Assembly: GCA_011389745.1 (NCBI GenBank)
Contig: JAABTQ010000001.1
Location: 142,497 to 206,496 of the forward strand
Source of the DNA: Desulfobacteraceae bacterium
GTDB lineage: Bacteria; Desulfobacterota; Desulfobacteria; Desulfobacterales; SKZT01
Length of the DNA: 64,000 nt
Reading direction: 5' to 3'
A program made the position numbers and the translations under genes. The notes below the pieces were generated by a model. That model did no database searches, was not told where the DNA came from, and saw only the letters and a program-made list of their open reading frames with translations. Position 1 is the stretch's first letter, and each line of letters opens with the position of its first letter. This document shows, piece after piece, positions 21,808 through 61,823 of the stretch.

Positions 21808-22782
21808 TTAGACAACAAAAATTAGGCAAAGACTCACAACCATGGCATAAATCGCCGTAGATTGCGAGACCGCCTGACCGACCAACATTATTCTCATGAG
21901 GCCTCCCGCATTTTCAACACTGCGGGCGACCCAACGGACCGCGCCTTCAGCGGCCATACCGTTGCCGACACCTGGTCCGATACCTCCGAATCCCGTGCTG
22001 ATACCCGCGGCTAAAAGTCCCGCCGATGCCGCAAAAGTGGTGGATTCGGGAAAAGCTTTGAACATCAAAACAAAACTGATTAAGAGACCGAATATTGAAG
22101 GTGTCTGGGCCACTGCCTGGCCAACAAGCATGGTTGTTGTCACAGGTCCCGCTGTTTCGGGCTGCCTGGCGACACCCTCACAACTGGCGCCGGCTGCAAA
22201 CCCGCCGCCCATACCTGAGCCGATGGCTGCCAAACCGGTACTAAGCCCCGCCCCAATCACAGCCGCCCATGTGGGAAAAAGGGGGGCCTTTGAAAAGTCT
22301 ATAAAGATCAACATCAGGGCAACAACCATGGAAAAAATGGCCGGCGTCTGGCATACGGCAGACCCGATCAGCATATTGGTCGTCAGCCTGTTTCCAATCG
22401 ATGGCTGCCTGGCAAGACCGATACATGCCTGACCGCCCGGAAGGCCGGAGCCAATACCCGAACCAATCGCCCCAAAACCCATACAAAAGCCCGCTCCAAG
22501 AAGTGATGCGGCTTTTATCATGGTAGCATCCGGCATTTTGTAAAATAACATCAAAACAGCGATGACAAGTGCAAAAATAGATGCTGATTCGGCAATTGCC
22601 TGGCCTACAAGCATGGATTTGAACACATCGCCTGAAAGTTTTGTATTACGTGATACCGCAAAGTTAGCCTGTGCTGCGGTATACCCCTCGCCAATTGCCG
22701 CACCGATAGCCCCAAGGCCCATAGCCAAGCCGGCACCGGTATAAGCAGCTACACTCACCCAAGTTTGAACGTCGTTTATCAT
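21808..22782 (-). CDS. Four-hairpin fused ATP synthase c-like subunit with a single ion-binding pair
   Basis: 324 residues made of four tandem c-subunit hairpins (about 1-82, 83-161, 162-242, 243-324), that is eight membrane helices. Hairpin 1 keeps Glu32, Gln61, Glu65 and Ser66 (GQAIAESASIF). In hairpins 2 to 4 the position of Glu65 is Gln: VCQTPAIF (Gln145), VAQTPSIF (Gln226), VSQSTAIY (Gln307), and position 32 is Ser112, Gly193 and Asn274. Each helix-turn-helix loop still has the polar loop (ARQP in 2 and 3). It starts 3 bases after the atpB stop and is followed by the normal c gene. Fused rotor subunits with fewer carboxylates are known in Acetobacterium and archaea; a fourfold fusion with one pair is unusual for an F-type operon. 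Confidence 0.92.
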   Translation of the reverse strand: MINDVQTWVSVAAYTGAGLAMGLGAIGAAIGEGYTAAQANFAVSRNTKLSGDVFKSMLVGQAIAESASIFALVIAVLMLFYKMPDATMIKAASLLGAGFCMGFGAIGSGIGSGLPGGQACIGLARQPSIGNRLTTNMLIGSAVCQTPAIFSMVVALMLIFIDFSKAPLFPTWAAVIGAGLSTGLAAIGSGMGGGFAAGASCEGVARQPETAGPVTTTMLVGQAVAQTPSIFGLLISFVLMFKAFPESTTFAASAGLLAAGISTGFGGIGPGVGNGMAAEGAVRWVARSVENAGGLMRIMLVGQAVSQSTAIYAMVVSLCLIFVV

Positions 22783-41965: not shown

Positions 41966-43093
41966 ATGGGACAACTTTTTCTTGAATTTTTATCCAATAC
42001 CGGATTTGCTCTTGCTGATTATCGTCATTTCATCATGATTTTAATCGGGATCATTTTCATATATCTGGGTATCGCCAAACATTACGAACCTCTTTTGCTG
42101 GTACCTATCGGATTTGGTATCCTGGTAGGCAACATCCCTGTTTTTAAAGGCCTCGGCCTTGGAATATATGAGGACAACAGTGTGCTTCATTACCTTTATA
42201 TGGGGGTGACATCCGGTGTTTATCCTCCTCTTATTTTTCTGGGGATCGGAGCCCTTACAGACTTTTCCACAATGCTGGCAAGACCCATGCTGATGCTTTT
42301 GGGCGCTGCAGCTCAAATGGGTATCTTTCTCACTTTTCTCGGTGCGCTCGCTCTCGGCTTTGCACCCAATGAAGCTGCCGCCATTGGAATTATCGGCGGG
42401 GCGGATGGGCCTACCGCCATATTTTTAACCGCAAAATTAGCCCCGCACCTTATCGGTCCCATTGCCGTAGCCGCCTATTCCTATATGGCCCTTGTCCCGG
42501 TGATTCAGCCGCCTATTATGAAGCTTCTGACCTCCAGAAAAGAACGGTTGATCCGGATGGAAGAACCCAGGGAGGTCTCCAAAAGAGAAAAAATCATATT
42601 CCCTATCTTAGGCTTTTTACTTTGCTGCTTTTTGGCGCCTGCGGCCTTACCCCTTTTGGGCATGCTATTTTTCGGTAATCTGCTCAAAGAATGTGTTGTT
42701 GCCGAGCGTCTGGCACAAGCCGCCCGAACATCGGTTATCGACACCGTCACCATTCTTCTGGGGCTGACTGTCGGTGCCAGTACCCAGGCCGATGTGTTTC
42801 TGACACCCCAATCCGTGGGCATTTTTATTCTTGGCGCTACTGCCTTTGGCATAGCCACCGCATCCGGAGTGATTTTCGCTAAAATCATGAACCTGTTTTT
42901 GAAAGCTAAGATCAATCCGCTGTTGGGCGCAGCAGGTGTATCCGCCGTTCCTGATTCCGCACGCGTTGTTCAGATGGTGGGACAGGCCGAAGATCCCAAT
43001 AACTTCCTGTTGATGCATGCCATGGCACCCAATATTTCAGGTGTTATCGGTTCCGCAATCGGAGCTGGTATTTTATGGAGTTTTGTTGGATAA
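41966..43093 (+). CDS. oadB: OadB-type Na+-translocating decarboxylase beta subunit
   Basis: The 375-residue membrane carboxylase subunit decarboxylates carboxybiotin while exporting Na+. About ten helices are apparent. The family-specific GGADGPTAIFLT segment holds the Asp needed for Na+ coupling in Klebsiella OadB, and GVTSGVYPPLIFLGIGALTDF is the N-terminal signature. The C-terminus has MHAMAPNISGVIGSAIGAG. It could serve oxaloacetate, methylmalonyl-CoA or glutaconyl-CoA; the alpha and biotin subunits are not here. Stop and next start overlap (TAATG). Confidence 0.92.
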   Translation: MGQLFLEFLSNTGFALADYRHFIMILIGIIFIYLGIAKHYEPLLLVPIGFGILVGNIPVFKGLGLGIYEDNSVLHYLYMGVTSGVYPPLIFLGIGALTDFSTMLARPMLMLLGAAAQMGIFLTFLGALALGFAPNEAAAIGIIGGADGPTAIFLTAKLAPHLIGPIAVAAYSYMALVPVIQPPIMKLLTSRKERLIRMEEPREVSKREKIIFPILGFLLCCFLAPAALPLLGMLFFGNLLKECVVAERLAQAARTSVIDTVTILLGLTVGASTQADVFLTPQSVGIFILGATAFGIATASGVIFAKIMNLFLKAKINPLLGAAGVSAVPDSARVVQMVGQAEDPNNFLLMHAMAPNISGVIGSAIGAGILWSFVG

Positions 43094-44556
43094 TGGATAA
43101 AACCACGGACAATTCAAAGCGGCTGGCCACTATGATGATTTACGGCCGCGTACCTCTCATATTCGCCGGACTGATCTGCGCTTTGGGTGTCATGTGGACC
43201 AAAGATCCAATCATATATACTCTGGGCGTTTCCCTTCTTTTCATATCCATGGCTTTCGATGTTTCAGGTGTCTGGATTGCATCGCGTTTCGAGCAGGTTC
43301 CGGCCCTGACCCATCTGGCCGACCGGGTCATGGACAAGCTGGTTTATTCAATTATTTTTCCATTGGTGGCTGTCGGGGAAATGTGGCGGCTACAGCAGAT
43401 GGTCACGGAAGTTACCAGAGGTGAACGGCTCCACGCCATCTTTGTACTCATACTTTGCATTACAGTATTAATAAGAGACAATTTTGCGCATTATATGCGC
43501 AATTTTTCCATCCGAAAGGGTGAGCAACCTAAGCCCAGCGAATTAAGCCGTTTGAGATTTTTGGTTGCAGCGCCTGTTGCCGCCATTTTATATGCACACG
43601 CATTTTATATTCCAGGTTTTTCGCACCTTCCGGTTCTTGGCTGGTTTTCCTGGTTCGGCAATATCTCCCTAAGACTTCTTTTTTTTATAGAGATTCTTTT
43701 TCTTGTTATCAATTTCGGTTCGATTGCTCGTTATTGTAAAAAATACGGAAGCTTATGCCTGGACGAATTGTGCTTTGAAAATGATATTCTCAGAACGAGA
43801 ATCTTGTCGTTTTTTCCCAATACACTGACCGTCATGAACGCCATCATGGGTTTGTTATCGGTTTTTTTTGCTTACCAGGGAAGAATACAGGAAGCCTACC
43901 TGATTTTGATCGGGGCCGCTTTTTTTGACAAACTGGATGGCGCCCTTGCAAGAAAACTTGGATTGACACAGCCTAAAAATGAATACGGCAACCACGGAAA
44001 AATTACTATGGGGGCTATATTGGATGACATCTCCGATGCCATCAGTTTTTGTATATGCCCCGGATGGATTTTTTATATTGTTTTTTCCGAAAATTTTAAC
44101 GGTATCACTTTTCTTCTTCCCATCGGTGTCATATCGATATTTTACGCAATTATGGGAATCGCCCGTCTTATCTATTTCACTCTGGACAAAAATCCCATTC
44201 CGGGGTTTTTTAAAGGGTTGCCTACCCCTGCGGCGGCTTTGCTTGTGACAGCTCCCATGATCATTTTTAACCAAAGTTTAACCTCTGAAAACGGTATGAT
44301 ACTTTTCTGGGGAAATTTCTGTTTTTTCTGGATGATTTTCATTGCGATAATGATGAATTTTTACCCGATTCGTTATCTGCACGTAGGCCGTTTCATGGAT
44401 CAACATCCCTGGTTTACCTGGGCATGTATTCTTTTTCTTTTTATCTTTATTTTTACACCATATTTTGGCCACGCCGCATTTGTGCATATGCTCTCCTACC
44501 TGTTGTCTCCCTTGATTACCCGGAAAATAGATATCGATTTGACATCCTCAAAATAA
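43093..44556 (+). CDS. CDP-alcohol phosphatidyltransferase, tandem-domain
   Basis: 487 residues, many hydrophobic. The second half has the CDP-alcohol phosphotransferase motif as DKLDGALARKLG, then after a longer-than-usual gap GAILDDISDA (D-x2-D-G-x2-A-R ... G-x3-D-x3-D). The N-terminal half carries a degenerate copy: FDVSGVWIASR lacks the second Asp, while DRVMD keeps the last pair. The start is ATG on the oadB stop, so the two are coupled. The likely product is a phospholipid headgroup transfer such as phosphatidylserine; the substrate is not known. Confidence 0.82.
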   Translation: MDKTTDNSKRLATMMIYGRVPLIFAGLICALGVMWTKDPIIYTLGVSLLFISMAFDVSGVWIASRFEQVPALTHLADRVMDKLVYSIIFPLVAVGEMWRLQQMVTEVTRGERLHAIFVLILCITVLIRDNFAHYMRNFSIRKGEQPKPSELSRLRFLVAAPVAAILYAHAFYIPGFSHLPVLGWFSWFGNISLRLLFFIEILFLVINFGSIARYCKKYGSLCLDELCFENDILRTRILSFFPNTLTVMNAIMGLLSVFFAYQGRIQEAYLILIGAAFFDKLDGALARKLGLTQPKNEYGNHGKITMGAILDDISDAISFCICPGWIFYIVFSENFNGITFLLPIGVISIFYAIMGIARLIYFTLDKNPIPGFFKGLPTPAAALLVTAPMIIFNQSLTSENGMILFWGNFCFFWMIFIAIMMNFYPIRYLHVGRFMDQHPWFTWACILFLFIFIFTPYFGHAAFVHMLSYLLSPLITRKIDIDLTSSK

Positions 44557-44580: not shown

Positions 44581-44721
44581 TGAGCCGTTCATTTTCCAAA
44601 GATATTTTAGATCCTGATCATTTTGTCATGACTCTGTACAAAAATATCGGCCATTCTTGGAATATGCCAAATTTAAAGATGGGGTTTTCAGGTAATGAAG
44701 CAACTTCCGTTTCAGCAATCT
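44581..44721 (+). CDS. Possible small protein upstream of the methyltransferase
   Basis: A 46-codon frame starts at ATG 44581 behind AAAGGAACC and begins MSRSFSKDILDPDHF. It overlaps the methyltransferase start by 27 bases in another frame. There is no homology that I recognise. It may be a leader for the following gene, or chance. Confidence 0.3.
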
Positions 44722-46248
44722 GATCCGGTGCATAAAAATTTTCAGTTTCTCGAGGATCTAGCCACCGCCTACTGGTATTCCGAGGTGCTGTTTGCCGCCA
44801 TTGAACTGGATTTGTTCGGATGGATCGAAAAAGGATATCACCGGATGGAAACTTTAGCGGAGGCCGCAGGTTGCCGGATGCACGAATTCGGTCGCATGAT
44901 GCGTGTTCTCCGTCGCCTTGAACTGGTTTACGATTATGACGGACAATGGTTCAACAACCGGATCAGCCAAATGTACCTGGTTGACTCCAGCCCGGACTAT
45001 ATGGGTGATTTTTTTTTGTACCGGCAATATATGAAGCCCCAATGGTCGGATCTTCTCAAAAAGGTTTCCCGGGCCCACCATGTTCACAGCACCCCATTAT
45101 CTGCAGATGATGATTATGAAGTCCGGAATTTTCACTATGTCCGGTCCCTGGATCGTCTGATCCGGCAAAAAGCGCGGGAAATTATCTCCCTTTTCAGCCA
45201 CCTGCCCTGGAAAGGCCCTGTTCTCGATATCGGAGGCGGTGCCGGAACCCTGGCACGGGAACTGACAAACTCTCGTTTAAATGACCATGCGGTGCTGGTT
45301 GATCTTCCTGAAGTAATCAGAGCAGCCCGCCTGATTTATCCGGATTCAGCCGATTGGAAACAAATTCATGCCGTAGCCGGTGATTTCCGGTTTTATCCTT
45401 TTTCTGAAAGACGGTTCGGCCTGATTGTCATGAGCAATTTTCTCCATGCTTACAGCCAGGACACCGCACGGCATTTGCTGGAACAAGCTATAAAGCTTCT
45501 TCGCCCCGACGGCTTTGTTCTGATTCATGACTATATGCCGGACCGTTTTGGAAAATCACCCCACAAGGGACCTTTATACGACCTGAATATGATGCTCAAC
45601 ACCTACGACGGCCAATGCCATGACACGGCAAAGATTATGGATTGGCTCAAAACGGCTGGGATGAACCATTTGGCGGTTCATGATCTTCAAACGGACACCT
45701 CGGTCATTATCGGCAGTTTTAATCCCCTGCCCCTATCCTGTAAAGACCGGAAGAAACATTGGCGCCATGTGGCCAGGAATATGGGATTTGCCGATGCAAA
45801 ATTTCTCGCTTCGTCCGATATCGTCACAGCCGCCTGGGTCAGGATAAAATGCCGGTTCGGATGTGGAGGGTACGGTAAAAATCTGCAATGTCCCCCCCAT
45901 ACCCTAAGCCATTCCGAACTTAGGGAAGTTCTTGCTTCCTATTCACTGGTGCTTATGATTCAGGGGTCACCTCCGGGGCGTGATTTTCATAAAAAGCTGC
46001 TCGAACTTGAAAAAAGAGCCTTTCTGGACGGATTTCACAAGGCGCTGGTTTTCGGCGCAGGCCCATGCCCCGTATGTGATTCCTGCCCCGGGGACCCAGT
46101 CTGCCGAAATCCGGAAAAAGCCCGGCCTTCCATGGAAGCCTGCGGTATCGACGTGTATGAAACCGCCCACAATGCCGGGTTCAGAATTGAACCGGTCTGT
46201 GAAAAACAAGGCTATGTCAAATATTTCGGCCTGCTGCTGATGGAATAA
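44695..46248 (+). CDS. Methyltransferase fused to a DUF2284 metal-binding domain
   Basis: 517 residues in two parts. Residues about 1-345 form a COMT-like O-methyltransferase with an N-terminal dimerisation domain and a SAM-binding loop VLDIGGGAGTLA; HDYMPD follows the later strand. Residues about 350-517 are a DUF2284 domain with CRFGCGGYGKNLQCPPH and a cysteine-rich CPVCDSCPGDPVC. DUF2284 often accompanies anaerobic corrinoid or metal-dependent enzymes, though its role is unclear. A radical SAM gene follows as a broken copy. I do not know the substrate. No frameshift is seen at the domain junction. Confidence 0.82.
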   Translation: MKQLPFQQSDPVHKNFQFLEDLATAYWYSEVLFAAIELDLFGWIEKGYHRMETLAEAAGCRMHEFGRMMRVLRRLELVYDYDGQWFNNRISQMYLVDSSPDYMGDFFLYRQYMKPQWSDLLKKVSRAHHVHSTPLSADDDYEVRNFHYVRSLDRLIRQKAREIISLFSHLPWKGPVLDIGGGAGTLARELTNSRLNDHAVLVDLPEVIRAARLIYPDSADWKQIHAVAGDFRFYPFSERRFGLIVMSNFLHAYSQDTARHLLEQAIKLLRPDGFVLIHDYMPDRFGKSPHKGPLYDLNMMLNTYDGQCHDTAKIMDWLKTAGMNHLAVHDLQTDTSVIIGSFNPLPLSCKDRKKHWRHVARNMGFADAKFLASSDIVTAAWVRIKCRFGCGGYGKNLQCPPHTLSHSELREVLASYSLVLMIQGSPPGRDFHKKLLELEKRAFLDGFHKALVFGAGPCPVCDSCPGDPVCRNPEKARPSMEACGIDVYETAHNAGFRIEPVCEKQGYVKYFGLLLME

Positions 46249-46252
46249 CATT

Positions 46253-46776
46253 ATGAAAATACTGAAAATACTGCTTGTTCAAGTACCGACATCTCATATG
46301 GGCGCAAGAGAGCGTGTCTATCCCCTGGGACTTGCCCGGCTATCAAGCCTGATTAATGGACCGGATTTTTCAGAGAAGACTGCCTGAGCGCATCCCAATG
46401 CGACCTGGCGGTCAGGGCCGGATTATCCGCCATTTATTTTTCCGGTGACGCCCTTACCCGGCACGGTCTGGAATTGCTCGGCAAACGTCTGGCCAAAGCG
46501 GATCTTTTCCGGGCTTCCCGCCTGACGGTTTCCGCCGGCGTACTCACCATGTGCCACTTTCTTGTCAATTTGCCCGGCGAGTTTCCGGCCCATGAAACCG
46601 AGGCCCATGACACCCTGTAAAGGATTCTGGAAATTCATCAGCAGGCCGGAAACCTGGGAGCTGTGATTCTCAACACGGTTCGCATCTATCCTGATGCGCC
46701 CCTGACCCGACGGATGCTTCGCAAAGGATGGATAGCACCCGGACCCTGTTTGCCAAAGATCCTCAATGGCGGCTGA
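46253..46776 (+). pseudogene. Remnant of a B12-binding radical SAM protein
   Basis: From ATG 46253 the 44-codon frame starts MKILKILLVQVPTSHMGARE and ends at TGA 46385-46387; a normal protein would continue as a B12-binding domain. The next frame, from about 46392, encodes HGLELLGKRLAKADLFRAS, MCHFLVNLPGE and AGNLGAVILNTVRIYPDAP, the C-terminal radical SAM region, interrupted by TAA at 46618-46620 and ending at 46776. The internal cobalamin and CxxxCxxC regions are deleted. The gene follows the methyltransferase-DUF2284 gene, with which the intact form was probably co-transcribed. Confidence 0.8.
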
Positions 46777-47278
46777 CAGGAAAATCGGGTTCATCGGGGT
46801 CCTGCATACCTGGTCCCAGACCCTGACGGACCATTTTCATCTGCACTGCCTGAATAACTACAGGACGGGAAGGTCACATTTTCATACCGGGACCGATCCG
46901 ATGGAAACCGCAAAAAACCGATGGCCCTTGAAGCGAAGAGTTTATCCGGCGGTTCCCCGGAAAAGGCACTTGCAAGCCATGAATTGATTCCTGATTCGGA
47001 CACATTCTTTCAGTGGAAAAAATCCTGGAATTTTTGACGGCATTACTCACATCCTTTCGAATACACCTGACATCCGATACATAAACACTGACCTTGTAAG
47101 CACAACCTTGTAGTATTTAAAGCGCCCTTGCATAAAAATAAATATTGCTTATGTTGTACATAATCTTGATGCTTTCTTGAAAAAATATATCACTCAATAA
47201 TTACATCATATACAATTGCAGGACGATCTTTTATGTGCTTTGCTAATCTATTCAGGGAAAAAAGAAAGGAAACCGAAA

Positions 47279-47497
47279 ATGAGTTCACACACAGAAGAAA
47301 AAACGGAAGACTGCCCCGAATGCAGGGGAACCGGCAAAATCAGCGCATCTAATTGCAGTACTTGTGATGGAAAAGGAGAAATCATCATTCACTCCCACAC
47401 GCATAGTCACGGTGAAAACACTCACGACCACCCTCATCCTCATGATGAACCCCACCATCCCAAGGATGATACCCAACACGACCACAAACACAGCTGA
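47279..47497 (+). CDS. Small CxxCxGxG zinc-finger protein with histidine-rich tail
   Basis: 72 residues. CPECRGTGKI and CSTCDGKGEI are two DnaJ-type CxxCxGxG motifs, enough for one zinc site. After these the protein becomes a His-rich tail (HSHTHSHGENTHDHPHPHDEP and more, about 17 His in 36 residues), which should bind Ni, Zn or Co. The start follows AAAGGAAACC. It is at the border of the decayed accessory region. Possibly a metal store or metallochaperone; no partner is nearby. Confidence 0.72.
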   Translation: MSSHTEEKTEDCPECRGTGKISASNCSTCDGKGEIIIHSHTHSHGENTHDHPHPHDEPHHPKDDTQHDHKHS

Positions 47498-48003: not shown

Positions 48004-48180
48004 ATGAAGAAACGCGATTTAGAAAAGGCGCATGGGAGGATCGGTTGGGCGTATCTTCGCCATGGAAGGCGCCATGACATTTGGACCGACGGAGAACGTG
48101 AAGAAGCAATTCCTCGTCACAACGAAATAAACGAAAAGCTTGCAAGAACAATTCTCAGGCGAGCCGAGAGGAGAAACTGA
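48004..48180 (+). CDS. hicA: HicA-type mRNA interferase toxin
   Basis: 58 residues starting MKKRDLEKAHGRIGW. The HicA fold uses a catalytic His; here the motif is RHGRRHDIWTDGEREEAIPRH. HicA cleaves mRNA in the absence of HicB. Start is ATG 48004, at about the predicted transcription start; the upstream in-frame GTG lies in the promoter. hicB starts one base after the stop. It is the first cassette of the array. Confidence 0.85.
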   Translation: MKKRDLEKAHGRIGWAYLRHGRRHDIWTDGEREEAIPRHNEINEKLARTILRRAERRN

Positions 48181-48181
48181 T

Positions 48182-48601
48182 ATGCGTTTTTACGGGAAAG
48201 TATACAAAGACGGCAAGGTTTGGCTGGCGGAACTGCCTCTTCTCGATGCTATGACACAAGGCCATACACGAAAGGAGGCCTATGCCATGGTTGAGGACCT
48301 TTTGGAAAGCTTAGTGAACCGCCCAAGTTTTAAAGTTAGTGTGCACCCGGGCAAACATGGTGACTTTGAGGTGAGTGCAAACGATCCTCGGTTTCTGATA
48401 AGCCTTTTTCTGCGAAGACAGCGGGAGAGAAGCGGTCTTTCGCTATCAGAAGCTGCCGAGCGACTTGGTGCCAAGTCTCGCAATGCCTATGCTCGTTACG
48501 AGCGAGGAACATCAATGCCAAGCTTGGAGAAATTGGTCGAATTGTATCAAGCCGTTGCTCCAGGTAAAGACATCGTACTTCACGATAGTGCAGCCGCATA
48601 A
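48182..48601 (+). CDS. hicB: HicB-type antitoxin with helix-turn-helix
   Basis: 139 residues from ATG 48182 (GAGAGGAGAAACTGAT upstream). The N-terminal half is the HicB RNase H-like fold (FYGKVYKDGKVWLAELPLL), and the C-terminal half is an XRE-type helix-turn-helix (RSGLSLSEAAERLGAKSRNAYARYERG) that would bind the operator before hicA. The stop lies in the first bases of the following attC-like site, the hallmark of a gene cassette. Confidence 0.85.
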   Translation: MRFYGKVYKDGKVWLAELPLLDAMTQGHTRKEAYAMVEDLLESLVNRPSFKVSVHPGKHGDFEVSANDPRFLISLFLRRQRERSGLSLSEAAERLGAKSRNAYARYERGTSMPSLEKLVELYQAVAPGKDIVLHDSAAA

Positions 48602-48641
48602 CCCAGCCAGTCCACCGGACGGCTTATGCGGAACGTTAAGC
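48596..48641 (+). repeat. attC-like recombination site 1
   Basis: GCATAAC (R''-like, one mismatch to RYYYAAC) at 48596-48602 and GTTAAGC (a perfect GTTRRRY core) at 48635-48641 bracket a hairpin: GCC-A-GTCC-ACC-GGAC-GGC with a bulged base, inside outer GCATAA/TTATGC pairing. A bulged asymmetric stem is typical of attC. It starts at the hicB stop. Confidence 0.62.
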
Positions 48642-48665
48642 CTCTAAACGATAAAGGAGAATTAC

Positions 48666-48948
48666 ATGGCCGATAATCACCAGATTAAATGTATAATAAG
48701 ACAGACCGTCAAAGTGCTCATGAACGAATCAGCCACGTCGGTGGAGTGAATGGAGACGGACACGGTGGAAGTTAACTCTAGACCGGGCTATAGAAGGGAT
48801 CGAGTCTGGGAAATGGAGATTCTATGTGAGTATGAACGGAAAGTCGGTTTCGGTAATTGTCTCAACAAGTGCAAGCGGTAGGAAATATTTGAAAACTGAG
48901 AATGAGGTGACCAACCGACAATCTGCTCAGTCTGCTGAGTGCCCATAG
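48666..48948 (+). pseudogene. DUF3892-like cassette gene with two frameshifts
   Basis: From ATG 48666, behind AAGGAG, the frame begins MADNHQIKCI. A shift near 48692-48696 leads to NKTDRQSAHERISHVGGVNG, and a second near 48760 leads to RWKLTLDRAIEGIESGKWRF, YVSMNGKSVSVIVSTSASGR and KYLKTENE to the stop at 48948. The combined protein, about 93 residues, looks like the DUF3892 family of unknown function. The stop is the base before attC site 2, so it was a cassette. Frameshifts could be real decay or assembly error, but two shifts argue for decay. Confidence 0.75.
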
Positions 48949-49024
48949 GCTTAACAAACGGCTCAAATTCGCTGCGCTGCGCCGGACGCTCACTACGTTC
49001 GCGCTGTTTAGCCGGACTTTAGGC
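48949..49024 (+). repeat. attC-like recombination site 2
   Basis: R'' GCTTAAC (48949-48955, a perfect RYYYAAC) and R' TTTAGGC (49018-49024, one change from GTTAGGC) bound a 76-base element with imperfect arms: CGGCTCAAATTCGC on the left and GCGCTGTTTAGCCG on the right. Length, arms and core positions fit attC. It follows the DUF3892 stop directly. Confidence 0.75.
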
Positions 49025-49071
49025 ATACGGAGAGTCAGACTTGGTAAGTAATATTTCAAATTCAGTAATAG

Positions 49072-49158
49072 GCGCGGTCTCTTATTTATAAGCCGGAAAA
49101 CAATACGAGTATCATTATTAGCGCTCGTGATATGAGCCAAAAAGAGAGAAAAGCATAT
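49072..49158 (+). pseudogene. C-terminal remnant of a BrnT-like toxin
   Basis: In the frame ending at TAA 49158 the last 28 residues contain IIISARDMSQKERKAYGKK, which matches the BrnT C-terminus (RIISAR...KERRxYE). A TAG at 49069-49071 closes the frame on the left, and attC site 2 lies directly upstream. The toxin was truncated, presumably at the cassette boundary. The stop overlaps the ATG of the following antitoxin. Confidence 0.65.
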
Positions 49159-49426
49159 GGAAAAAAATAAACTAAGCAGTATATCGAAAGCAAATACATA
49201 TGAAAAAATGGGGGAATTCTGGGATTCACATGATTTCACGGAATTCGACGAGGAAAGCTCTCCCGATGTCAACTTTGAAATATCCTGCAAGATATCGGTT
49301 GAACCTGATTTGTTGTCATCGATTGAAAAACAGGCAAGGATTAGAAAAATAGATACAGAAACATTAGTGAACCTATGGTTGCATGAAAAACTGAATCAAG
49401 TTAAGAGCGAAATACACTCATCTTGA
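49157..49426 (+). CDS. CopG-type antitoxin (BrnA-like) without functional toxin
   Basis: 89 residues. FWDSHDFTEFDEES is the signature of the CopG antitoxin family that pairs with BrnT-like toxins, and the C-terminal half (VEPDLLSSIEKQARIRKIDTETLVNLWL) is the ribbon-helix-helix. The toxin remnant lies immediately upstream, so it is an orphan antitoxin. The region downstream of the stop should be the attC but is occupied by intron-like sequence. Confidence 0.78.
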   Translation: MEKNKLSSISKANTYEKMGEFWDSHDFTEFDEESSPDVNFEISCKISVEPDLLSSIEKQARIRKIDTETLVNLWLHEKLNQVKSEIHSS

Positions 49427-49440
49427 TATAAAAGCGGCCA

Positions 49441-49508
49441 ATCGGGTAGCCGGGGGTTTTCTCCCCCAGCCCCCACAACACCCGGCATGCGGATCCGCAC
49501 CGGGCGTT
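49441..49508 (-). ncRNA. Group II intron 3' end remnant (domains V and VI)
   Basis: On the minus strand, 49508-49477 forms a 32-nt domain V: AACGCCCGG pairs with CCGGGTGTT, with a TG bulge on the 3' side, an upper TGCG/CGCA stem and GATC loop. The CGC triad is that of class C introns. After it comes a domain VI hairpin with GGGGG/CCCCC and a bulged A seven bases before the end (CTACCCGAT at 49449-49441). Together these define the 3' end of a group II intron. It lies 15 bases after the CopG gene stop. Confidence 0.68.
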
Positions 49509-49639
49509 TCACTTAAAAAACCGGACAGTAGTCGGGTAATGAATTTTCACCCTGTTGCATTCCCAAAGGGAACCCTATTCAACAGGGTAAAACCACAGTT
49601 CTTTGACAGACAGCAGAACTTGATCCTTAAGCCGCTTAA

Positions 49640-49713
49640 TGGTCATGCCGCCTGAACCCATCACTTGAATCTGGAAACTCCGGATCAAAGACAGGAATCA
49701 TCACCAGAGTTTA
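49640..49713 (-). pseudogene. Fragment of a group II intron reverse transcriptase
   Basis: A minus-strand frame reads IPVFDPEFPDSSDGFRR before ending at TAA. This corresponds to the conserved intron-encoded protein block of the form L-x-P-x-F-D-P-x-F-S-x-S-S-Y-G-F-R-P. Most of the protein, and the RNA between this fragment and domain V, is missing, so the intron is a deletion relic. Between 49509 and 49640 I see only a CCTGTTG/CAACAGG inverted pair. Confidence 0.6.
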
Positions 49714-49723
49714 TGGCTTGTTG

Positions 49724-49793
49724 GATAAACCATTTCCGCTTTCTGGCCGGTTGTCGCGATGCACCGCCCGGCCCCTGAAATGCGGCGTTGGCA
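49724..49793 (+). repeat. attC-like recombination site 3 (degenerate)
   Basis: CATTTC (49731-49736) pairs with GAAATG (49777-49782), and GGCCGG (49745-49750) with CCGGCC (49768-49773), an arrangement with unequal internal loops as in attC. The end cores are weak: GATAAAC on the left and GTTGGCA on the right. It precedes the phd promoter by 8 bases. Confidence 0.45.
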
Positions 49794-49800
49794 TTAACAC

Positions 49801-49836
49801 TTGACTTTCGGTCCGAATGTGGTACTTTATTTGGAC
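49801..49836 (+). promoter_or_regulatory. phd-parE promoter and operator
   Basis: TTGACT and TACTTT are separated by 16 bases, a reasonable promoter. GTCCGAAT (49811-49818) and ATTTGGAC (49829-49836) are near-perfect inverted arms spanning the -10, the likely Phd binding site for autoregulation. The cassette thus carries its own promoter. Confidence 0.55.
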
Positions 49837-49848
49837 TGGAGGGAAAAA

Positions 49849-50130
49849 ATGAATATTACAAAGGATATTAAACCCGTTACTTATTTAAAATCACGGGCGG
49901 CCGATTTACTCAATCAAATTAATGAAACGCATCGACCTGTTATAATAACCCAAAACGGTGAACCTCGGGCTGTACTCCAAGATCCTGAAAGTTATGAAAA
50001 TATGCGTAATGCCATCGGTCTTTTAAAACTTATTTCAGCAGGGGAAGCCGATATTAGGGAGGGGCGAATAACGTCACAAGAAGATGTGTTCGATGAAATC
50101 GAAAGCGCACTAAAAGAAAGCCATAAATGA
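49849..50130 (+). CDS. Phd/YefM-type antitoxin
   Basis: 93 residues from ATG 49849, behind GGAGGG. The N-terminal fold is typical: VTYLKSRAADLLNQINETHRPVIITQNGEPRAVL (read as pieces VTYLKSRAADLLNQI and VIITQNGEPRAVL). The acidic tail (DIREGRITSQEDVFDEIESALKE) would wrap the toxin. It overlaps the parE gene by four bases (ATGA). Confidence 0.88.
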   Translation: MNITKDIKPVTYLKSRAADLLNQINETHRPVIITQNGEPRAVLQDPESYENMRNAIGLLKLISAGEADIREGRITSQEDVFDEIESALKESHK

Positions 50131-50453
50131 GCAAAGAATATCATGTTAAATGGGCTGCTATTGCGCAAAGCGATTTGAAACAAATATTTGATTATATAGC
50201 AGTTGATAGCCCGACCAATGCGCTACAAATACTAAAAAAAATCAGACAAAAAGCGTCAAGCCTCTACACCTTTCCTGATCGGGGTAGGATTGTAACGGAG
50301 TTGAAAGATCAGGGCATACACATCTATCGAGAAATAATTGTTCCTCCCTGGCGAATTATTTACAGAATATCAAATGCAACTGTTTTTGTTTTATCCGTTA
50401 TAGATTCAAGACGGAATGTTGAAGATATCTTGCTGAATCGATTTATCAATTAA
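50127..50453 (+). CDS. RelE/ParE-type toxin
   Basis: 108 residues. VKWAAIAQSDLKQIFDYIA is the ParE helical hairpin, followed by FPDRGRIVTEL and IVPPWRIIYRISNATVFVLSVIDSRR, which end the RelE/ParE fold. The C-terminal DSRRN resembles the YafQ/ParE end. It would poison gyrase or ribosome-bound mRNA; which is not decided. It is intact, translationally coupled to its antitoxin. Confidence 0.87.
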   Translation: MSKEYHVKWAAIAQSDLKQIFDYIAVDSPTNALQILKKIRQKASSLYTFPDRGRIVTELKDQGIHIYREIIVPPWRIIYRISNATVFVLSVIDSRRNVEDILLNRFIN

Positions 50454-59744: not shown

Positions 59745-61823
59745 TTAGGCTGCCTTTGTTTTTTTCCCGGTATGCATGTAGCAGATAAGGCCACACCGAA
59801 GGCATCTTCCAGCCTCTTTTCTTGCCATATGTTCATCAAACCCTTTTTCAAGTTCTATAACATCACCGGTTTCTTTAGGACTTCGCACCGGCATAATGGT
59901 TCTGGAAGATATTTTCACATCTTCTTTACCAAGTTCATATATATCTTGAACAACCGAATTTTCAGTGAGAACATTTTCATCCAGGAACGGATCGACATTG
60001 AACATGATCTGATGAATTGAAGCAGCTACACGTCGGCCTGCTCCAATGGCTTTAATGGCTGCATGATAATCGGACATGGTATCGGCCTTGGAAAAAAATC
60101 CGCTTTCATCTTTAAAAGCAGGGCGCTTATAAGGCTCCTGCGCAACCCATTTTAAAGGTCCTTGTTCTTTGGCTGCTTCTTCTTGATTCTCCTCCTCAGG
60201 ATCTATCTCAGGCTGAGCCTTTGTAAAAATCAGTTCCGGAAACCTTCCCCCGGCCAAAAAGAGAGTTTGTGCATTCAAAGTTTCGGTTTTATTCGTCTCT
60301 ATATCAATAACTTCGATTCCAGTCAGTTTGCTCGCCTCACCGAAAAGCCGGTTCACAGCCGTCTGGAATTTGATATGAATCCCTTCCTGTTCAAGTTTAG
60401 AGGCATCCACAATTCCTCCGGGCATCTGATCTTCAGCTTCCCTGAACAGGATTGTAATATTTTTTGCCCCGAGACTTTTCAAAAGTCCCACACTGTCTAT
60501 GGCCACGTTATCGCCACCGGCCACTACCACATTTGATCCTACCGTCAATGCTCCTGATTTTTGTCCATGCTTGATAAGATCCACCAACAAATAGGATCCG
60601 GGCACCAGTTGTTCAACTTTTTCCAACGCCCCCCGTGCCAAACGGCTGTCCCATCCACCGGTGGTTAATAGTGCGGCCTTAAAACCACCGGTCAACAATG
60701 ATTCGATGGTAAAATCTTTACCGAGAGCCATTTTTGTCTCGGCTTTAACTCCCATCTCAAGGATACCATCGATATCGTAGTCAATGATTTCCCTTGGCAA
60801 CCTGTTATTTGCGATTGCGCTTCTTAACAATCCACCCAACTGAGAAGTCGCTTCAAACACAGTAGCCTCATGACCAAGACGACATGTAAAAAAAGCCGCT
60901 GATAGTCCGGAAACACCCCCTCCGATAATTGCCACCTTATGGCCCGTATCCGGAGCTTTGAATGGAAAGGAACGTTGGCCGATTTCCTTTTCGTAATCAG
61001 CCACATATCTTTTTAAGAAATTGATCGCCACCGGTTCGTCAAGAAGACTTCTTCGGCATTCCAATTCACATGGGCGAGGACATATACGTCCTATGACCGA
61101 GGGAAAAGGATTTCGCTCTTTAATCACCTGAACCGCTTCAGAGTAGTTACCTAAAGAAATTTGTCGAATATACTCACAAATATTGATCCCGGCAGGACAG
61201 GCCCGCTGACAGGGTGTCGTGCACTCTTCGGTAGTATATTCTTTCAAAATTCTTCGGGTTACCGAGGAAAGATTGATGATATGTTTAGGACATACACGTT
61301 CGCAGGTGCCGCAGCCGGTACATTTTTGTTCATCCACCTTGGGAAGATTGTCTTCGCCGATAACAATGGCATCGAACGGGCAGGCTCTGGCACAACTTCC
61401 CAGCCCCAGACAGCCTATGGTGCAGACTTTCATTCCGCCTCCCAGAAGAGCGGCTGCCCTGCAGTCCGAAAGACCATCATAGATGTATTTGATATCCGCA
61501 TCCTGAAATCCGTATGTACATCCCGGACGCGCAATATCGGGTTCTTTGGCTTCTATGGCAACGCCTAAAATGGCGGCAATGGCCTGAGCCACATCATCTC
61601 CCGCAGCTACACAAGAATTAGGAGCGGCTTTACCTGCTACAATAGCCTCTGCATTGGAACTGCATCCCGGAAGACCGCAACCACCACAGTTGGCTCCGGG
61701 CAGTGCATCTTCCACCGATAATATCTTGGGGTCGACATACACGTAAAAAACCTTTGACGCCACAGCCAACCCGATACCAATGATCAGTCCCAAGCCTCCA
61801 ATCATGAAAACCGCTGATAACAT
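59745..61823 (-). CDS. RnfB-like ferredoxin fused to a GltD/NfnB-type flavoprotein
   Basis: 692 residues in three parts. About 1-30 is an RnfB membrane anchor (VFMIGGLGLIIGIGLAVASKVF). The Fe-S region follows: CGGCGLPGC, CTIGCLGLGSCARACP, and CTGCGTCERVCP, the RnfB pattern. From about 200, the GltD-type start CTTPCQRACPAGINICEYI, FAD binding VAIIGGGVSGLSAAFF and the NAD(P) fold VVVAGGDNVAIDSVGL lead to the end with CLRCGLICYMH. It follows the NuoF-like gene after 123 bases. This combination would tether a transhydrogenase-like module to the membrane. Confidence 0.9.
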   Translation of the reverse strand: MLSAVFMIGGLGLIIGIGLAVASKVFYVYVDPKILSVEDALPGANCGGCGLPGCSSNAEAIVAGKAAPNSCVAAGDDVAQAIAAILGVAIEAKEPDIARPGCTYGFQDADIKYIYDGLSDCRAAALLGGGMKVCTIGCLGLGSCARACPFDAIVIGEDNLPKVDEQKCTGCGTCERVCPKHIINLSSVTRRILKEYTTEECTTPCQRACPAGINICEYIRQISLGNYSEAVQVIKERNPFPSVIGRICPRPCELECRRSLLDEPVAINFLKRYVADYEKEIGQRSFPFKAPDTGHKVAIIGGGVSGLSAAFFTCRLGHEATVFEATSQLGGLLRSAIANNRLPREIIDYDIDGILEMGVKAETKMALGKDFTIESLLTGGFKAALLTTGGWDSRLARGALEKVEQLVPGSYLLVDLIKHGQKSGALTVGSNVVVAGGDNVAIDSVGLLKSLGAKNITILFREAEDQMPGGIVDASKLEQEGIHIKFQTAVNRLFGEASKLTGIEVIDIETNKTETLNAQTLFLAGGRFPELIFTKAQPEIDPEEENQEEAAKEQGPLKWVAQEPYKRPAFKDESGFFSKADTMSDYHAAIKAIGAGRRVAASIHQIMFNVDPFLDENVLTENSVVQDIYELGKEDVKISSRTIMPVRSPKETGDVIELEKGFDEHMARKEAGRCLRCGLICYMHTGKKTKAA

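Follow-up and report, generated by a model that had tools for sequence, protein, structure and literature searches.

The fused gene and its domains

The window, a stretch of 64,000 nucleotides from the genome of a Desulfobacteraceae bacterium (GenBank assembly GCA_011389745.1, contig JAABTQ010000001.1), carries at 44695-46248 on the forward strand a gene in which a COMT-type methyltransferase is joined to a DUF2284 domain. We investigated this gene as a candidate bzaC, the O-methyltransferase gene of the anaerobic bza pathway for the lower ligand of cobamides, and considered what its DUF2284 tail may do. The open reading frame extends from an ATG start to a TAA end with no internal stop and encodes 517 amino acids, and its assignment as a bzaC-DUF2284 fusion draws on this frame, on Pfam domains and on homologue alignment. 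CRFGCGGYGKNLQCPP and CPVCDSCPGDPVC are both found in the product, so that the sequence-only reading of this DNA, which had described a COMT-like methyltransferase joined to DUF2284, was borne out.

Three domains follow one another along the protein, all encoded on the forward strand. A COMT-type dimerisation domain at residues 16-96 (44740-44982; Pfam PF08100, Dimerisation, E 2e-10) precedes an O-methyltransferase domain at residues 142-323 (45118-45663; PF00891, Methyltransf_2, E 2e-18), and DUF2284 occupies residues 370-515 (45802-46239; PF10050, E 1e-38, 133 bits against a cut-off of 25). PF00891 and PF08100, together with a histidine at the catalytic position, place the methyltransferase part among the COMT-type enzymes. 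This histidine, His251 (codon at 45445-45447), is invariant in 15 fusions. It aligns with the histidine of the LHDW stretch of PDB 4a6d, which is human hydroxyindole (N-acetylserotonin) O-methyltransferase and the closest protein of known structure (E 5e-19); we take both to be the catalytic base. The top Foldseek matches of a full-length model were COMT-type methyltransferases. The human enzyme shares the fold, the dimerisation domain and the LHDW histidine with the fusion and acts on a bicyclic aromatic with a 5-hydroxyl group, apparently close in chemistry to the substrate predicted for the fusion, but has no DUF2284 match, is 22% identical in the Foldseek alignment and serves a different pathway.

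The DUF2284 part is assigned to its family by a score above the Pfam cut-off and by a pattern of three plus four cysteines. Cys386, Cys390 and Cys399, followed by Pro-Pro, form the first motif (45850-45897, forward strand), and Cys458, Cys461, Cys464 and Cys470 the second (46066-46104, forward strand). Both motifs, and thus all seven cysteines, are invariant across the 15 aligned fusions and also across 21 DUF2284 domains, seven of which are stand-alone proteins. Binding of a metal or an iron-sulphur (Fe-S) cluster by DUF2284 is a prediction, found in the Pfam name only.

Distribution of the fusion

The fusion was found in 15 of 194 sampled genomes of the host's order, comprising the window's own copy, 12 other unbroken copies with 35-64% identity to it and two copies whose reading frame is interrupted, that of G110 within DUF2284 and that of G181 within the methyltransferase. 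In this sample it was not seen in the other genome of the genus (G043) nor in one genome of the family (G095). A sample of the phylum (395 genomes) adds fusions in G308, G398 and G218, a search of the family of G383 adds one in G575 and a scan of genome contigs one in a metagenome-assembled genome of the Desulfomonilaceae (L033), giving 20 distinct fused loci in total. The whole-genome searches covered the host's phylum, and the genome-contig scan gave two loci, both Desulfobacterota, namely L033 and a Desulfobacteraceae locus taken to be that of G084. Viral contigs yielded no confirmed relative of the fusion or of BzaE, and among the plasmid matches listed the only useful relative was a methyltransferase of Trichlorobacter lovleyi. 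The earlier reading had held that a fusion confined to this genome would suggest chance gene joining; recurrence in 15 of 194 genomes of the order, and at 20 loci, rules this out.

Decayed remains were also detected in the order, namely fragments of bzaC and bzaF in G143 (L049, 4401-5045 and 7874-8300) and of DUF2284 in G189 (L050, 440-691), which suggest to us that the bza cluster has decayed here more than once.

Cluster context and identity of the methyltransferase

In relatives of the window, a recurrent cluster is observed in which a ThiC-like BzaF, CobT and the fusion are followed by the B12-binding radical S-adenosylmethionine (SAM) proteins BzaD and BzaE, although not every gene is present at every locus. 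Membership of a bza cluster is thus seen in the relatives, whereas the window locus keeps only a remnant of bzaD. The CobT neighbours matched their NCBIfam model above its cut-off. For the BzaD neighbours, TIGR04385 (cut-off 450) gave 635.7 bits in L048 and 401 and 423 bits, below the cut-off, in two other loci. The second radical-SAM protein has no close NCBIfam model and is provisionally named BzaE from its position. A cobalamin riboswitch (RF00174) precedes either the cluster or its bzaF at 15 of 24 BzaC loci scanned, these being the 26 known loci minus L039 and the T. lovleyi stretch. On the T. lovleyi plasmid the annotated order is cobT, 'BzaF' and the methyltransferase relative. A few kilobases upstream of the bza cluster of G089 there is also a HEARO RNA (L042, 5167-5387, reverse strand; RF02033, 115 bits).

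The order of the bza genes in Moorella thermoacetica, Eubacterium limosum and Acetobacterium woodii is given, together with the lower-ligand pathway, in PMC8123684, anaerobic lower-ligand gene sets and a BzaC HMM are described in PMC6461909 and enzyme names for bzaC, bzaD and bzaE appear in a figure legend of PMC8620254. The protein of the window resembles the characterised BzaC of these three organisms in pathway place, O-methyltransferase domain and clustering with CobT, BzaF or BzaAB, BzaD and BzaE. Its C-terminal DUF2284 may set it apart from them, and the host further differs in having a disrupted bzaD and no bzaE that could be found.

Conserved clustering, riboswitches and fold combined suggest that the fusion is very probably BzaC, with a predicted activity as 5-hydroxybenzimidazole O-methyltransferase of anaerobic cobamide lower-ligand synthesis. 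Two points speak against this assignment. No BzaC model was among the NCBIfam matches of the fusion, so that the identity rests on context, and the window's own bzaC has no riboswitch upstream and neither bzaF nor cobT alongside. That the fusion is instead a COMT-type enzyme of some other metabolism, lying near bza genes by chance, is nevertheless very improbable. Many of these genomes do contain COMT paralogues of about 340 residues, such as G000:C3, which has no bza genes around it, but clustering with BzaF, CobT, BzaD or BzaE in many families, together with the riboswitches, argues against chance neighbours, and the five ordinary COMT paralogues included in a methyltransferase tree form a separate clade (100/100). 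The link to a corrinoid raised by the sequence-only reading holds as far as the pathway is concerned, since that pathway is cobamide lower-ligand synthesis.

Fused and unfused BzaC

At least six BzaC relatives are unfused, as found by similarity rank and by reading of neighbours (by neighbours only for G082). According to Pfam, DUF2284 is missing from those of G174, G383, G549, G082, the T. lovleyi plasmid and G513. The first four lie in clusters with a cobalamin riboswitch, which are composed of BzaF-BzaC in G174, BzaF-BzaC-CobT in G383, BzaF-CobT-BzaC in G082 and two ThiC-like genes, CobT and BzaC in G549. At five of the six unfused loci, all but G513, neither BzaD nor BzaE is seen in the cluster. 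Downstream of BzaC in L047, L087 and L088 nothing better than E 0.1 was obtained for DUF2284, BzaD or BzaE, and in L139 all three were without a match at 1e-6. The T. lovleyi stretch was judged from its annotation, its chromosome lying outside the comparison; absence of BzaD refers to the whole genome at E 1e-80 in the phylum sample and to a reading of the neighbourhood for G174 and G082.

Conversely, BzaD, BzaE or both accompany the fusion at every one of the 20 fused loci, with a BzaD remnant taking their place in the window and in G010. Any BzaD, BzaE or BzaD remnant is thus associated with 20/20 fused but 1/6 of the unfused loci listed (Fisher p 9e-5), BzaD beside BzaC with 16/20 against 0/6 (p 0.0009; one of the 16, in G181, has an in-frame stop) and BzaE with 17/19 against 1/5 (p 0.006); because the loci are related, these p values serve as guides only. 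From the BzaE count G089 was set aside since its contig ends just after BzaD, and T. lovleyi since its chromosome was unsearched; the 17 BzaE of fused loci include four cut by a contig end (G084, G308, G398, G575) and two on another contig (G132, G156). At two fused loci, G398 and G218 (L085, L086), BzaE occurs without BzaD beside it. The counts leave out the decayed fragments of G143 and G189, G098, in which BzaE lies on short contigs, and distant COMT paralogues.

The methyltransferase tree, built from 18 of the 20 fused rows (the broken fusions G110 and G181 omitted), the six unfused rows and five COMT paralogues (L024, L030 and L031 omitted), scatters the unfused proteins. G549, G383 and T. 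lovleyi pair with the fused G177, G308 and G218, respectively; G082 is placed outside the pair of T. lovleyi and G218, and G174 outside a set of 13 fused rows. The well-supported branches alone require the fused and the unfused state to have changed at least five times. Both states even occur within one genus, in which G575 has BzaF-BzaC-DUF2284-BzaD-BzaE and G383 has BzaF-BzaC-CobT. A DUF2284 family match was obtained in all 23 BzaC genomes searched, including unfused G174, G383, G549 and, weakly, G513; a missing fused domain is therefore not a missing family. Viewed from the other end of the pathway, what we count as a true BzaE was detected in 13 of the 194 genomes of the order (in G084 by a piece at a contig end) and the fusion in 12 of these 13, including the broken fusions of G110 and G181; four further matches of about 200 bits in the BzaE search were taken as probably other radical-SAM proteins.

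Since fused loci carry BzaD, BzaE or a remnant and most unfused loci show neither, the distribution hints that DUF2284 tracks the later B12-dependent radical-SAM steps of BzaD and BzaE and not O-methylation. A number of observations weigh on the other side. Unfused G513 has a BzaE, split over two contigs, while BzaD was not found there; its BzaC is distant, groups with other COMT paralogues in the tree and may not be an orthologue. In G098 (83% complete), which has BzaE on short contigs, BzaC was not found. DUF2284 is retained in G000 and G010, where BzaE was not found. Finally, two reviews (PMC13390470 and PMC11321594) state that T. lovleyi makes cobalamin, although its plasmid cluster is without annotated BzaD or BzaE; a second cobT on its chromosome is mentioned in PMC3403914.

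The sequence-only reading had proposed that the cysteine-rich domain assists the methyl transfer. This was not supported, as unfused BzaC occurs in riboswitch clusters or with annotated BzaF, is scattered over the tree and lacks a following BzaD or BzaE. Assistance by DUF2284 to its own methyltransferase, for example by binding the substrate through a metal, is favoured by the direct fusion of the two and by the existence of arsenite methyltransferase-like proteins with a fused DUF2284 of their own (NCBIfam NF041536; listed in PMC13188914); five clusters with unfused BzaC, in which neither BzaD nor BzaE was shown, argue against a need for the domain in O-methylation, and we regard such assistance as improbable. 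The NF041536 proteins (arsenite methyltransferase/DUF2284 domain selenoprotein) also combine a methyltransferase with DUF2284, but the methyltransferase family differs, and they are selenoproteins whereas the fusion of the window has cysteine throughout and no in-frame stop. The fusion itself was ruled out as an arsenite methyltransferase, NF041536 matching over residues 359-517, the DUF2284 part only, with 103 bits against a cut-off of 575.

The bza pathway in the host genome

Immediately downstream of the fusion, the host retains a bzaD pseudogene in two pieces on the forward strand. The 5' remnant (46253-46384) comprises the start codon and residues ~19-58 of the BzaD of G167 at 69-72% identity, and the 3' remnant (46354-46746), in another frame, residues ~292-422 at 71-73% identity; about 235 codons are gone between the pieces and two TAA codons were counted, one of them at the junction. 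bzaE was not found in the host assembly, which is 99.92% complete. The best matches in this genome, with 27% identity and 129 bits by profile, were rejected as BzaE and taken for other radical-SAM proteins, given that most true BzaE score at least 520 bits by profile, pieces cut by a contig end scoring lower. Two ThiC-like genes are present, which share 38-41% (L057) and 64-78% (L058) identity with the copies found in the clusters. The best NCBIfam model for each is ThiC, but the higher identity of L058 and the cobalamin riboswitch upstream of it lead us to read L058 as the putative bzaF of the host. There is one CobT in the genome, and bzaF and cobT lie away from bzaC.

As BzaF, CobT and BzaC are present but bzaD is disrupted and no bzaE was found, lower-ligand synthesis is expected to end with 5-methoxybenzimidazole. 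The predicted product of the host is a 5-methoxybenzimidazolyl cobamide, by analogy with Moorella, in which bzaA-bzaB-cobT-bzaC is reported to make this cobamide (PMC8123684). DUF2284 may therefore be a relic in this organism. Relative to G167, nonsynonymous divergence (dN) is 0.28 for the methyltransferase and 0.27 for DUF2284, with synonymous sites near saturation, and 0.21-0.23 for the dead bzaD pieces. DUF2284 is thus as constrained as the methyltransferase despite the loss of the later genes, which would weigh against the proposed link to BzaD and BzaE; but the dead pieces have a dN just as low, so that the break is probably recent and these values tell little about selection today.

Alternatively, the entire host locus may be dying, the bzaC-DUF2284 gene being a non-working leftover in an organism that makes a 5-hydroxybenzimidazolyl cobamide or salvages its ligand. 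The bzaD pseudogene, the failure to find bzaE and the missing riboswitch upstream would fit, as would the decayed bza remnants in G143 and G189; against this, bzaC has kept 517 codons without a stop, the catalytic histidine and 7/7 cysteines, and bzaF has kept its riboswitch. We consider a dying locus unlikely, although it deserves to be kept in mind.

The stretch behind the broken bzaD contains the end of a Group II intron RNA (49441-49509, reverse strand; RF00029, 46 bits against 40). It is a guess that a mobile element took part in the loss of bzaE.

Fold of DUF2284 and its proposed role

An AlphaFold model of DUF2284 alone was obtained with a mean predicted local distance difference test score (pLDDT) of 87 and a predicted template modelling score (pTM) of 0.85. 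The first ten Foldseek matches of this model were all epoxyqueuosine reductase QueG, with E values from 1.5e-3 to 2.5e-2. In VIA-align the first places went to QueG (residues 5-175, presumably the part that binds cobalamin) and to NpRdhA, a reductive dehalogenase dependent on B12, with Z 7.4 each, where Z below 8 may reflect a common arrangement only; these were followed mostly by flavin nitroreductases and, lower, by B12-handling MMACHC at Z 5.1. We assume that the nitroreductase-like domain of QueG and NpRdhA is the one that binds cobalamin. QueG and NpRdhA are thus the best structural matches of the model, at a level below that of a safe fold relation and with no significant sequence similarity to QueG, and the resemblance to their cobalamin-binding domain is offered as a lead only. 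Comparison by hhalign of DUF2284 with seven QueG domains gave it no support, with a probability of 1.7% for a match of 25 N-terminal residues only. The DUF2284 profile likewise returned a probability of 0.6% against the BzaE profile, and a search by sequence for relatives of known structure gave nothing below E 0.4. Around the seven stand-alone DUF2284 proteins, other bza genes were not found at E 1e-6.

Combined, these results suggest that the gene encodes a BzaC with a DUF2284 tail which probably serves the BzaD and BzaE steps and is dispensable for O-methylation. BzaC would use SAM to methylate 5-hydroxybenzimidazole, or its CobT-activated riboside, to the 5-methoxy form, the methyltransferase part acting like hydroxyindole O-methyltransferase with His251 as the presumed base. 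DUF2284 would belong with the next steps, carried out by the B12-binding radical-SAM enzymes, of which BzaD would add a methyl and BzaE would swap the methoxy group for a methyl. Its cofactor is likely an Fe-S cluster, possibly combined with a corrinoid or a flavin, and the domain may supply electrons, keep the cobalamin of BzaD and BzaE active or pass on the substrate. Radical replacement of an aryl methoxy by a methyl group should need electrons beyond the methyl donor, and an Fe-S domain of low potential, attached to the enzyme of the step before, would be well placed to provide them. We put forward this Fe-S module, giving electrons, active cobalamin or substrate handover, as a tentative possibility.

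The main rival for the role of DUF2284 is structural. The domain, holding a structural zinc or Fe-S site, could dock BzaC to BzaD and BzaE and channel poorly soluble benzimidazoles without any redox function. Its co-occurrence with BzaD and BzaE and its fusion directly upstream of them in the cluster agree with docking; the seven invariant cysteines, present also in seven stand-alone proteins without bza genes nearby, suit a cofactor site better, and we judge a purely structural role rather unlikely.

A more specific form of the cofactor proposal, in which DUF2284 is an Fe-S, corrinoid-handling reductase domain of QueG- or dehalogenase-like fold and a partner of BzaD and above all of BzaE, is speculative and on balance doubtful. 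It would give electrons or reactivated cobalamin to the methoxy-to-methyl replacement, fusion to BzaC would put it near the substrate and it would be lost along with the last step. Were this true, the many DUF2284 proteins that stand alone would by extension work with other methylation systems based on B12 or radicals, and the clusters of G398, G218 and G513 would make 5-methylbenzimidazolyl cobamides.

Other features of the window

Window genes read from their translations appear to include those of sulfate respiration (AprA, Qmo). Upstream of the fusion, at 41966-44556 on the forward strand, the gene for an oxaloacetate decarboxylase beta subunit (PF03977) is overlapped by that of a 493-residue protein whose C-terminal half contains a CDP-alcohol phosphatidyltransferase domain. 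Downstream, at 47216-47497 on the forward strand, a short protein has a weak DnaJ-type CxxCxGxG match (28.9 bits, cut-off 32.7) and a very histidine-rich tail and is possibly a metal-binding protein. Close together on the forward strand at 48140-50453 are a helix-turn-helix protein (48140-48601), a PhdYefM antitoxin (49801-50130) and a ParE toxin (50127-50453). On the reverse strand, 21808-22782 encodes an ATP synthase c subunit of 324 residues with four ATP-synt_C repeats (PF00137) in one chain, beside what appear to be other ATP synthase genes; usual c subunits consist of one hairpin. A 692-residue protein encoded at 59745-61823, also on the reverse strand, combines N-terminal PF04060 FeS and 4Fe-4S domains with Fer4_20 and pyridine nucleotide oxidoreductase domains.

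Implications

Neither the pathway nor BzaC is new, and NF041536 is a curated model for a different kind of methyltransferase-DUF2284 fusion. A BzaC that includes DUF2284 was not found in the open-access literature searched, where the two papers naming DUF2284 do not mention it alongside BzaC. For the anaerobic conversion of methoxybenzimidazole to 5,6-dimethylbenzimidazole, the true vitamin B12 ligand, the parts of the literature consulted offer gene assignments only. DUF2284 is without a function in Pfam, and if it is a partner of BzaD and BzaE, an orphan cysteine-rich domain gains a concrete pathway.

The gene sets of G398, G218 and G513 (L091/L136), with BzaE but no BzaD beside it, would predict a 5-methylbenzimidazole lower ligand. 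Early reports describe 5-methylbenzimidazolyl cobamides in sulfate reducers, as would fit clusters having BzaE without BzaD. In the window itself the pathway is caught during its trimming: bzaC is intact, and the disrupted bzaD still follows it. If the proposed role of DUF2284 is true, it would also permit a finer reading of gene sets when the cobamide of a given sulfate reducer is to be predicted.

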